Origin: Acidobacteriota bacterium
GTDB taxonomy: Bacteria > Acidobacteriota > Terriglobia > Terriglobales > Acidobacteriaceae
Length of the DNA stretch: 34,533 nucleotides
NCBI GenBank assembly: GCA_019510535.1
Contig: JAEKKE010000084.1
Coordinates: forward strand, 1-34,533
Direction: 5' to 3'
This document shows, one piece after another, positions 2,840 to 26,718 of this stretch (position 1 is the first letter of the stretch; each line of letters starts with the position of its first letter). Under the pieces are notes generated by a model. It was given only the letters and a program-made list of their open reading frames with translations. It was not told the origin of the DNA and searched no databases. The position numbers and the translations under genes are program-made.

Positions 2840-3985
2840 ATGCCCTCCGTCGGTCTCTATCTTTCGGTTCCGTTCTGCCGCGCCAAGTGCAGTTACTGCA
2901 ACTTCGCGTCCGACGCCTTCGGCCCCGCCCGGATGGATGCTTATGTGGAGCGCCTCTGCGAAGAGATCGCCCAGGCGCCGGCAAAGGCTTCCGGTATGGG
3001 GGCGACGTTACCCCGGGATGTGGATTCGGTCTACTTCGGCGGAGGGACGCCGAGCCTGCTCTCTTCCGCTCATTTTCAGCGCATCTTTGAGGCCCTGCGG
3101 GCTGTTTTCTCGCTGCAAACCGATGTGGAGTTCACTCTGGAATGCGCTCCGGGGCAGCTTGTGGACGATACCCTCGCAGAATTGCTGCGTCACGGCCTCA
3201 ACCGGGTCAGCCTGGGAGTACAGTCTTTTGTCGACCAGGAGTCGCGCGCGGTCGGCCGCTTCCACACAAAGGATGTCTGCCTGGCCGAGATCGCCCGCCT
3301 CCGCTCCGCCGGCCTGCAGGAGATCAATGTCGATCTGATCGCGGGTCTGCCGCACCAGACTCACGAGAGCTGGCGTATCTCCCTGGAGCAGGCCGCTGCG
3401 ACAGGTGTGCCTCATGCCAGTGTCTACATGCTGGAGGTCGATGAGGAGTCCCGGCTGGGAAGGGAACTCATCGCCGGCGGTGTCCGCTATCACGCCCACC
3501 ATGTGCCGGATGATGGCCTGGTGGCGGAGATGTATCTTGAGGCCTGCGAGTTCCTGGGGAACAATGGCATTCCTCAATACGAGATCTCGAACTTCGCCCG
3601 TCCTGGCCAGGCCTCCCGCCACAACCTTAAGTATTGGAAGCGCCTTCCATACCTCGGTCTGGGGCTGGACGCACACTCTATGCTTGGCGATTGGCGCTTC
3701 CAGAACACAGACGATCTGAATGCCTATCTCGAGGGCAAAGCATCGCCGGATCCGGTTGCTGTGTCACCGCATGAGGCATCGGAGGAAGAGGTCTTCCTCG
3801 GCCTGCGGCTGAATGAGGGGATTCTTCTTCCTAAAGAAGGTCCCGTCGTTCCCGTGCTGCAGCAGTTGGTTCGAGAGGGTCTGATGCAGCTTCATGGAGA
3901 CCGCGTCGCTTTGACCCCGAAGGGGCGTCTTCTCTCGAACGATGTCTTCACCGAGCTTCTCGGTGCTGGAGCATTTTCCCTGTAG
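2840..3985 (+). CDS. hemW: Radical SAM protein HemW-like (coproporphyrinogen III oxidase-like)
   Basis: N-terminal MPSVGLYLSVPFCRAKCSYCNFASD with the CxxxCxxC radical SAM motif; VYFGGGTPSLL; RVSLGVQSF; HNLKYWKRLPYLGLGLDAHS. Start chosen at the internal Met 2840. Confidence 0.88.
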   Translation: MPSVGLYLSVPFCRAKCSYCNFASDAFGPARMDAYVERLCEEIAQAPAKASGMGATLPRDVDSVYFGGGTPSLLSSAHFQRIFEALRAVFSLQTDVEFTLECAPGQLVDDTLAELLRHGLNRVSLGVQSFVDQESRAVGRFHTKDVCLAEIARLRSAGLQEINVDLIAGLPHQTHESWRISLEQAAATGVPHASVYMLEVDEESRLGRELIAGGVRYHAHHVPDDGLVAEMYLEACEFLGNNGIPQYEISNFARPGQASRHNLKYWKRLPYLGLGLDAHSMLGDWRFQNTDDLNAYLEGKASPDPVAVSPHEASEEEVFLGLRLNEGILLPKEGPVVPVLQQLVREGLMQLHGDRVALTPKGRLLSNDVFTELLGAGAFSL

Positions 3986-4081
3986 GTGTAGAGCGGGGCT
4001 TCCCCATCTATGGGCGTTTTCCGCAACGAAAACGCGGCTGTACTCCTCTTCCGGGATACCCATCAACAGGGAAATGCTCTA
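3967..4081. mobile_element. Short palindromic element with terminal inverted repeats (MITE/REPIN-like, copy 1)
   Basis: Left end TGGAGCATTTTCCCTGT and right end ACAGGGAAATGCTCTA are inverted repeats (one mismatch, one indel); internal hairpin GCGTTTTC-CGCAAC-GAAAACGC at 4014-4035; closely similar to the reverse complement of 18821-18939. Confidence 0.7.
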
Positions 4082-4102: not shown

Positions 4103-5140
4103 ATGGAGATTATCGAGCTTCGCAGCGATACGTTGACCAAACCCACCGCCGCTATGCGCCAGGCTATGGCTACCGCCGATGTTGGCGACGATGTATACGG
4201 GGAAGACCCCACGGTCAACCGGTTGGAAGCGCGAGCCGCGCAGGTCTTCGGTAAAGAAGCTGCGATCTTCGTTCCCACCGGATCGATGGGTAACCTCACT
4301 TCCATCATGGTTCACACGCGGCCGGGGCAGGAGGTTATCTGCGAATCGCGCGCCCACATTCTGGATTGGGAGATGGGATCGATGGTCTCCGTTGCCGGAA
4401 CCGTGCCGCGCACCATCTTTGGGGACCGCGGCGTGCTTACCTGGTCTCAGATCCGCGAAAAGATCGTTCTCAATACTGCCGCATACTATCGCGCGCGTAC
4501 GGGACTGATCGAGCTCGAGAACTCGCACAATATGGCAGGGGGAACGGTCACGCCGCTCGATGTCTTTGAGGAGATCTGGGCTGGAGCCAAGGAGTGTGGC
4601 ATTCCGACGCATCTGGATGGAGCCCGCGTCTTCAACGCTGCTACTGCGCTTGGTGTTTCCGTCTCGCGGCTGACCAGTGGCTTCGACACGGTCATGTTCT
4701 GTCTCTCCAAAGGCCTGGCCGCGCCTGTCGGATCGATGATCGTCGGTAGCCGTGCATCCATCGACCGTGCACGTGTCATTCGCAAGACGCTGGGTGGTGG
4801 TATGCGGCAGGCAGGTGTGCTCGCCGCTCCCGGCTTGATTGCCCTGGAGGAGATGTCCAAACGACTCGCGGAAGACCACGCGAATGCACGTCTGCTGGCG
4901 GAGGCGATCGCTACTTCTCCAGCCGCGGAGATCGATCTTTCAGGCGTACAAACCAATATCGTGATCTTCCGTTTGGCCGGCCAAGGGGATGCCATAGGGT
5001 TTGTTCGCCGCTTGGAAGCGAAGGGCGTTCGTTGCAGCGCCATCGGTCCGCACGCGGTGCGGCTGGTAACGCACAACGATGTTTCGCACACGCAATGCGA
5101 AACCGCCGCGAAGCTGATTGTGGAAGAGCTGAACGCCTAG
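4103..5140 (+). CDS. ltaE: Low-specificity L-threonine aldolase (beta-eliminating lyase family)
   Basis: MEIIELRSDTLTKPTAAMRQAMATADVGDDVYGEDPTVNRLE; THLDGARVFNAA; FCLSKGLAAPVGSM (PLP lysine region). The upstream 31 codons in the ORF track are encoded by the repeat element, so the start is placed at 4103. Confidence 0.9.
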   Translation: MEIIELRSDTLTKPTAAMRQAMATADVGDDVYGEDPTVNRLEARAAQVFGKEAAIFVPTGSMGNLTSIMVHTRPGQEVICESRAHILDWEMGSMVSVAGTVPRTIFGDRGVLTWSQIREKIVLNTAAYYRARTGLIELENSHNMAGGTVTPLDVFEEIWAGAKECGIPTHLDGARVFNAATALGVSVSRLTSGFDTVMFCLSKGLAAPVGSMIVGSRASIDRARVIRKTLGGGMRQAGVLAAPGLIALEEMSKRLAEDHANARLLAEAIATSPAAEIDLSGVQTNIVIFRLAGQGDAIGFVRRLEAKGVRCSAIGPHAVRLVTHNDVSHTQCETAAKLIVEELNA

Positions 5141-13283: not shown

Positions 13284-13434
13284 AGCATTTCTCCTAAAGA
13301 TGCAGAGCGGAGGCTCGGGGTCCCCAGCGAACTCGTTCGCTGGGGTGAAGTCTTGGCTGTCTGCGCCGTTTTCCGGCGAAGAAAACGGCATTCGCAGGTT
13401 TATCCAAAGTTACAGTATTAGGAGAAGTGCTCTA
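13281..13434. mobile_element. Short palindromic element with 17-bp terminal inverted repeats (MITE/REPIN-like, copy 2), filling the pstB-phoU gap
   Basis: Left end TAGAGCATTTCTCCTAA (13281-13297), right end TTAGGAGAAGTGCTCTA (13418-13434): inverted with one mismatch. Internal hairpins CCCCAGCGAAC-TC-GTTCGCTGGGG (13322-13345) and GCCGTTTTC-CGGCGAA-GAAAACGGC (13365-13389). Confidence 0.75.
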
Positions 13435-14100
13435 ATGCGTATCCGGTTTCATCAGAGTCTGGACGAGTTGAAAGAAAAGCTGCTGGTCATGGCGGGCATG
13501 GCCGAGCAGGCGATTCAGCGTTCCATTGAGGCATATCGCACGCGTGATTTAGAGATCTGCGAACTGGTCTTCAAATCGGAGCCGGCCATCAATCGGCTGG
13601 AGCGGGAGATCGACCAGGCAGCGCTCGACCTGCTCGCGATGGAACAGCCCATGGCCATTGATCTGCGGTTCATTCTTTCTGTCATTCGCATCAATGCTGA
13701 CCTTGAGCGCGTCGGTGACCAGGCTGTGAACATCGCTGTTCGCGTGCGAGAGATGGGGGCTTATTCGAATGTCGACCTCCCGGTAGACATTCCACGTGCC
13801 GCGTCCCTCGCTTCGGCTATGGTCCGCAAGGCGCTGCAGGCGTTTATCGAAGGCGATGCCGAGTTGGCACGTTCGGTGCTCGCGATGGACGATGAGGTGG
13901 ATGCGATGAACGACGCTGCCTTTACGGCGTTGAGCGCGCTCATCAAGCGTCAGCCGGAACTAACGCCGCAGGCCCTAAATGCCTTGATCATTTCGCGCAA
14001 TCTGGAGCGCGTCGGAGACCACGCAACCAACGTCGCCGAAGACGTAATTTTCTGGGTTCGGGGCGCCGACGTGCGGCACAAAGGGTCCGTAGCAAGCTAA
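13435..14100 (+). CDS. phoU: Phosphate transport system regulatory protein PhoU
   Basis: MRIRFHQSLDELKEKLLVMAGMAEQAIQRSIEAY; DLRFILSVIRINADLERVGDQAVNIA; NLERVGDHATNVAEDVIFWVRG. Start at ATG 13435 directly after the repeat element; the 79 upstream codons in the ORF track are not PhoU-like. Confidence 0.93.
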   Translation: MRIRFHQSLDELKEKLLVMAGMAEQAIQRSIEAYRTRDLEICELVFKSEPAINRLEREIDQAALDLLAMEQPMAIDLRFILSVIRINADLERVGDQAVNIAVRVREMGAYSNVDLPVDIPRAASLASAMVRKALQAFIEGDAELARSVLAMDDEVDAMNDAAFTALSALIKRQPELTPQALNALIISRNLERVGDHATNVAEDVIFWVRGADVRHKGSVAS

Positions 14101-18820: not shown

Positions 18821-18939
18821 TTAGAACGGTTTTCCCGGTTGCTTGGTATTCCGGAAAGGGCGTGCAGCAGCGTTTTCATTGCGGAAAACGCCCACAGATG
18901 CGGATGCTCTGGACGAAGTCACCGGGAAAACGCTCTTAA
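18821..18939. mobile_element. Short palindromic element with terminal inverted repeats (MITE/REPIN-like, copy 3, reverse orientation to copy 1)
   Basis: Ends TTAGAACGGTTTTCCCGGT and ACCGGGAAAACGCTCTTAA are inverted repeats; internal hairpin GCGTTTTC-ATTGCG-GAAAACGC (18870-18891); its reverse complement aligns with 3967-4081 over the core GGGCGTTTTCCGCAAYGAAAACGC...TTCCGGRATACC. Confidence 0.7.
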
Positions 18940-26454: not shown

Positions 26455-26718
26455 AGAGCCGATAGCCTCGTTACCCATTCTTCGCGGTTTTATCGCGAAG
26501 GGTGGGGTCCCCGGCGAACTTGTTCGCTGGGGTTAGCGTGGGGTATCGCGCTGTGCGCGACCGCTCCTTCGTTTTTAGTGGCGGCGAGGCAGAGGGGTGA
26601 AATTTCGATACTTCCCAGAAATATGATCTCGGCCCTGGAGACCAAGGACGGTCTCGCTTCGCTCGATACCCCACCCTTTCGCTTCGCGAAAGAATGGGGC
26701 AACGAGGGTATCGGCTCT
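26455..26718. repeat. Large imperfect palindromic intergenic element with roughly 54-bp inverted arms and internal hairpins
   Basis: Left arm AGAGCCGATAGCCTCGTTACCCATTCTTCGCG...GCGAAGGGTGGGGT (26455-26508) and reverse complement of right arm AGAGCCGATACCCTCGTTGCCCCATTCTTTCGCGAAGCGAAAGGGTGGGGTAT (26666-26718); internal CCCCGGCGAAC-TT-GTTCGCTGGGG (26509-26532) and GAGACC-AAGGAC-GGTCTC (26638-26655). Confidence 0.75.

Follow-up and report, generated by a model that had tools for sequence, protein, structure and literature searches.

The locus raises the question of how a conserved gene comes to end inside a repeated palindrome, and of what kind of element that palindrome is. In the window (the whole 34,533-nt stretch of DNA that was analysed), the forward-strand hemW gene for the radical SAM heme chaperone (2840-3985; TIGR00539 HemW of NCBIfam, 231.8 bits, above cut-off) enters the left end of such an element and stops at an element-supplied TAG within the left repeat (3983-3985), its last residues, GAFSL, being repeat sequence. 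This is what the sequence-only reading had described, including the inverted ends and the central CGCAAC hairpin of a copy at 3967-4081, and the boundaries proved exact: a TG (3967-3968) as the left copy of a duplicated TA target, recognized by comparison with an empty site carrying a single CA, then 111 bp without coding capacity (3969-4079) and the right copy of the TA (4080-4081), all on the forward strand. The left terminal inverted repeat, GAGCATTTTCCCTGT (3969-3983), also encodes the HemW residues AFSL; the right one, ACAGGGAAATGCTC (4066-4079), is one A shorter than the consensus; and the hairpin GCGTTTTC-CGCAAC-GAAAACGC (4014-4035) is the best-conserved portion of the family. Downstream on the same strand lies an ltaE-like gene for a PLP-dependent aldolase of the GntG/L-threonine aldolase type (4103-5140; NF041359, 387 bits; PF01212; PRK10534, 280 bits, below its cut-off of 312). 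Its conserved start is the ATG at 4103, 21 bases past the element's TA, in agreement with the earlier estimate of about 20 bp, and the longer open reading frame from 4010 (MGVFRNENAAVLLFRDTHQQ...) is translated repeat, as had been suspected. What that reading missed was the class of mobile element, the transposase family, the distribution of the family and stop-codon landing as its commonest mode of insertion.

A filled-versus-empty comparison supports insertion as the cause of the rewritten hemW 3' end, as had been proposed. Terriglobus albidus DSM 26559 (L032; the same sequence as G009:C28) has an empty hemW site despite 327 copies of the element in its genome, reading GAGCTTCTTGGAGC-CA-CTGCCTGAGACAAT (also given as GGAGC-CA-CTGCCTGA), where the window reads GAGCTTCTCGGTGC-TG(element)TA-CTGCCTGAGACAAT and the three carriers (the window, G015 and G002) read GGTGC or GGCGC-TG(element)TA-CTGCC or CCGCC. 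The HemW C-terminus differs accordingly between relatives, ELLGATA-stop in T. albidus without the element versus ELLGAGAFSL-stop in the three carrier genomes, and the gap between hemW and the aldolase gene is about 6-12 nt when empty (T. albidus, from sequence) versus 117 nt with the element. Since the carriers are 92-96% identical to each other at this locus and 88-89% identical to T. albidus, a single gain in the carriers' common ancestor would be the parsimonious reading, and loss in T. albidus the less parsimonious one. With a left flank of TG in the carriers and CA at the empty site, one later substitution is required for each; most simply, the ancestral target would have been GC-TA-CT, with a T to C change in T. 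albidus that is synonymous (GCT/GCC) and an A to G change in the carriers that replaces R by G as the first added residue. Because HemW tails are highly variable among more distant relatives, the altered C-terminus is probably tolerated or near-neutral. Through its empty site, the locus documents how a conserved gene can receive a new end from a MITE.

The element belongs to a large family. Searching for the core GGGCGTTTTCCGCAATGAAAACGCC with at most three mismatches gave 224 matches in the soil acidobacterium from which the window comes and 253, 327 and 226 in the close relatives G002, G009 and G015, compared with 0 for a reversed-pattern control; of the 15 further members of this genus that were searched, 14 lacked any core match and G011 had one, at the three-mismatch limit, while G010 gave one short BLAST match to the element. 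The genome-wide BLAST search suggested by the sequence-only reading likewise returned many further copies in the own genome, at least 42 matches (40 scored candidates) and 273 at first look. A second, diverged copy lies in the window itself on the reverse strand (18822-18937; inverted match I1, 83%), with ends CGGTTTTCCCGGT and ACCGGGAAAACGC that carry partly matched changes. Across 300 genomes of the Acidobacteriaceae, other genera have related copies, up to 60 per genome, that combine the core ...CCCCAATG... with the same ends. Viral contigs and plasmid collections gave no match to the element, and within the collections searched the family was seen in the Acidobacteriaceae only. Measured between the TA dinucleotides, copies are most often 112 bp long, and derivatives with internal deletions and nested elements exist. 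One family copy in G002 (L163, 3745-4116), for example, is 370 bp long, bounded by the terminal inverted repeats and split by a nested palindrome that starts with GAGGGTGTGTCATCAAACTC and ends in its inverse. Tandem copies about 115 bp apart were seen at L012 1500-1730, G009:C18:57269-57408 and G009:C39:265536-265675, and the neighbours at L012 have one CTAG in common.

Several features place the family among MITEs. TA is found on both flanks in 70 of 123 distinct copies, the left dinucleotide being TA in 83 and TG in 20 of the 123. On the same strand, the right dinucleotide is TG or CA in only five of 123, versus 20 with TG on the left, an asymmetric decay of the target duplication. Joining the flanks of copies revealed empty sites elsewhere with a single TA (L108 versus L167, L022 versus L165), and L011, which sits in another repeat, also matched a single-TA empty site. 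The units are shorter than 400 bp and carry terminal inverted repeats; three of their six frames are mostly open, 112 bp is too short for a transposase, and their ends match those of IS630-family elements, found in other species. A matching autonomous element in the own genome, which is usual for MITEs but not required, was not found. Comparing sequences, we regard the element as very probably a non-autonomous MITE of the IS630/Tc1-mariner type, pasted into TA by an IS630 transposase acting in trans.

High copy number, palindromic form, a location mostly outside genes, GTAG words and the presence of Y1_Tnp genes in these genomes are also what would be expected of a REP/BIME-type element mobilised by a RAYT (Y1 tyrosine transposase). 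Such elements leave no target duplication, however, whereas here the TA duplication is clear and the inverted ends are common to IS630 elements; the unit is 112 bp long with a covarying terminal stem, and the Y1_Tnp loci are not bounded by the element's ends. We therefore consider this origin scarcely credible. A further reading is that of a conserved structured RNA, or a regulatory or terminator element of the hemW-ltaE operon, that is not mobile at all. The fold of the window copy as a single strand is strong (-56.6 kcal/mol, z -4.65, with 0 of 200 shuffles as good), and across an alignment of 179 copies the central hairpin hardly varies and the 17-bp inverted ends covary between subfamilies, as at column pairs 14/103 (CG 168, GC 10), 13/104 (CG 154, AU 11) and 15/102 (UA 164, CG 14), these counts being of sequences and not of independent events. 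This covariation fits inverted ends kept alike for transposition, and an RNA stem would look the same; the DNA reading is favoured since copies occur in both orientations relative to genes (34:34 to the upstream gene, either end facing it) at 140 independent sites. Against a fixed RNA also stand its absence from the hemW locus of T. albidus, the empty sites and the TA duplications, a scan of the window with 0 matches to Rfam families, and the position of the sole terminator-like match (3955-3972), away from the central hairpin and near chance at one per 400 bases. A non-mobile RNA or operon element is accordingly very improbable.

If the MITE reading holds, which transposase moved the family? 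The own genome (G000, a fragmented, 94%-complete draft) has no PF13358/DDE_3 (IS630) gene, and G002, G009 and G015 have one or two DDE_3 genes each, without the element's ends; the end of a distant IS630-type cousin in G015 is TAGAGCAAAG. Neither the own genome nor the complete G002 genome yielded a transposase with matching ends, and RAYT (PF01797) and IS4/IS5-type (PF01609) candidates in the element-rich genomes likewise lacked them. Longer elements with the exact end and another interior were also sought, and the matches inspected were MITE copies with one altered base, in a search blind to any autonomous element sharing with the MITE the base that follows the 17-bp end. Given this lack of a matching transposase, the family looks orphaned at present both in G002, with its complete genome, and in the own genome. 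In another genus, an IS630 remnant of G268 continues into GAAAATGCTCTA, and searching with the C-terminus of this remnant led to IS630 elements of about 1.02 kb (1016-1033 bp) in other Acidobacteriaceae with TAGAGC... at both ends, mostly TAGAGCATTTYYCC-like. Six were delimited (L316, L320, L331, L333, L337 and L328), of which L333 is from the same genus (G014); the six were picked by IS630 transposase similarity, and the open reading frames of the two tested by HMM match DDE_3 (1e-34 to 1e-35). A shorter upstream frame in L333 matches HTH_Tnp_IS630 just above cut-off. End for end, the MITE is identical to these six elements at 17-21 of 27 positions at both ends (for example, IS630 left TAGAGCATTTCTCCTGATGGTGTATAG and right TAGAGCATTTCTCCTATTGCTGTAG, MITE left TAGAGCATTTTCCCTGTAGGTGTAG and right TAGAGCATTTTCCCTGTTGCTGGG), a level of 17/27 that is reached by 31 of 10,433 TA-anchored positions in 400 kb of G002, the MITE's own ends being possibly among the 31. 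By sequence similarity the MITE is thereby linked to the IS630 group through its ends, and it would have been mobilised in trans by an IS630 transposase that is now absent.

At hemW, an IS630-family transposase acting in trans would have pasted the element into a TA spanning the codons GCT-ACT, two codons ahead of the native TGA, and duplicated the TA. The frame would then have run into the left end as GGA GCA TTT TCC CTG TAG, HemW losing Thr-Ala and gaining Gly-Ala-Phe-Ser-Leu with its stop inside the element. Between hemW and the aldolase gene, formerly in close tandem, there now stands an approximately 110-nt hairpin, presumably co-transcribed with the hemW-ltaE pair.

The hemW case is uncommon, and in nearly half of the independent insertions the upstream protein would be left as it was. 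Both element ends read TA followed by G, and when the TA that is hit belongs to a TAA or TAG stop codon a TAG is rebuilt, by which the upstream protein would remain unaltered. Around the copies, genes were predicted by a simple hexamer-based finder whose training set was 400 kb of G002, for about 140 independent sites sampled from more than 1,000 copies in four genomes. The 3' end of a gene coincides exactly with the element's TA+G 74 times (next commonest distance, 4). Deleting the element from the sequence while leaving a single TA gives a TAG or TAA codon for 62 of the 65 clade copies, which indicates insertions into native stop codons rather than truncations, and two stop landings are directly visible against empty orthologues (L108, L167). 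After clustering of orthologues, 46% of the independent sites (63 of 138) lie exactly in a native stop codon, compared with an expected 9.4% of TA sites outside genes, or 12.8% weighted by the element's flanking preference (p ~3e-21). The share is lower in other genera (5 of 25 copies, a small sample). Only three of 146 copies are inside predicted genes, and in-frame peptide insertion as in the Rickettsia RPE (here 112+2 bp, or 38 codons) is not a main mode. In the rare class to which hemW belongs together with L223, the TA is split across codons and five residues are read to an internal TAG; in the hemW variant the TA lies two codons upstream of the stop, with five residues added. Such positions are hardly used, although 340 genes offer 239 TAs within their final 30 coding nt. 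Among related IS630 right ends, five of 26 close a long opposite-strand open reading frame at TAG with a TAR codon restored (L316, L319, L323, L332 and L338); there is a hint that the parent IS630 elements land in stop codons too.

This stop-codon bias is the unusual part of the pattern, and it asks whether a TA-only transposon is steered to gene ends or merely survives there. In pure survivorship, the element would insert at any TA and the insertions that rebuild a stop would best escape selection. The near absence of copies within genes and the TAG-regenerating ends that make stop landings silent speak for this, and selection on short 3' regions is a possible contributor. On the other side, TAs 0-30 nt past the stop, also outside genes, are used 6.5 times less per site than stop codons, and the excess persists in convergent gene pairs (16:8 inserted versus 80:421 background TAs, odds ratio 10.5) as well as in tandem pairs (odds ratio 7.9). 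Weighing these, we hold pure survivorship to be about equally likely right or wrong. Sequence preference as the cause was rejected, its prediction of 12.8% being far from the observed share, and slow trapping of older copies in stops was ruled out since stop and non-stop copies are equally diverged (p 0.63). Active preference of the transposition complex for stop codons, through the DNA or the transcription or translation state at gene ends and beyond sequence and selection, is possible but rather unlikely; if true, it would be a safe-landing strategy of a bacterial TA-targeting MITE, with a logic comparable to insertion at att sites or tRNA genes.

The Correia/NEMIS and ERIC sequences differ from those of the present family. 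They too are short, palindromic, TA-flanked MITEs with many copies, which fold as RNA and sometimes alter genes, in different hosts (PMC2229807; PMC10969869). In size, TA target and inverted ends that match an IS630-family element, the family resembles RUP of Streptococcus pneumoniae (107 bp, about 100 copies, linked to IS630-Spn1, whose transposase is thought to act in trans; PMC2229807). All six frames of RUP contain stops, and the IS630 partner of RUP is present in the same species, whereas three frames of the present element are mostly open, its partner is missing from its own genome and, unlike RUP, its copies land in stop codons. The parts of the BOX study considered here describe 36 S. 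pneumoniae elements from which the preceding gene takes its stop codon, with no evident truncation, in a modular element linked to another IS, and, unlike the present family, describe no exact insertion into a native TAA or TAG (PMC3049150). In the portions of the QMITE2 reports drawn on here, this Coxiella burnetii element lies mostly in gene 3' regions and in one case, that of enhC, supplies the protein C-terminus, as the hemW copy does in its own, different host, with no rebuilding of stop codons reported, unlike the present family (PMC5896051; PMC10969869). We found no report in the open-access papers searched of an acidobacterial IS630-linked MITE or of quantified stop-codon insertion. 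The present family is thus a new one of a known kind, IS630-linked MITEs, with an unusual and testable insertion pattern, and it adds a large MITE family and its likely parent IS630 group, neither of which turned up in those papers, to the Acidobacteriota. For annotation it calls for caution, as the repeat in these genomes contains the stops of many genes and also some of the predicted starts.

A second, related MITE-like family, with ends TAGAGCAATTCTCCT...AGGAGAAATGCTCTA and a central hairpin GCCGTTTTC..GAAAACGGC, is present in the window at 13349-13436 and at L011, L138, L147, L148 and L164, and at L011 a copy of the present family sits at a TA inside an element of this second family. The hairpin GGGGTCCCCAGCGAACTCGTTCGCTGGGG occurs twice in the window (13317-13346 and 26504-26533, 93% alike), its copy at 13.3 kb adjoining the second MITE-like family.
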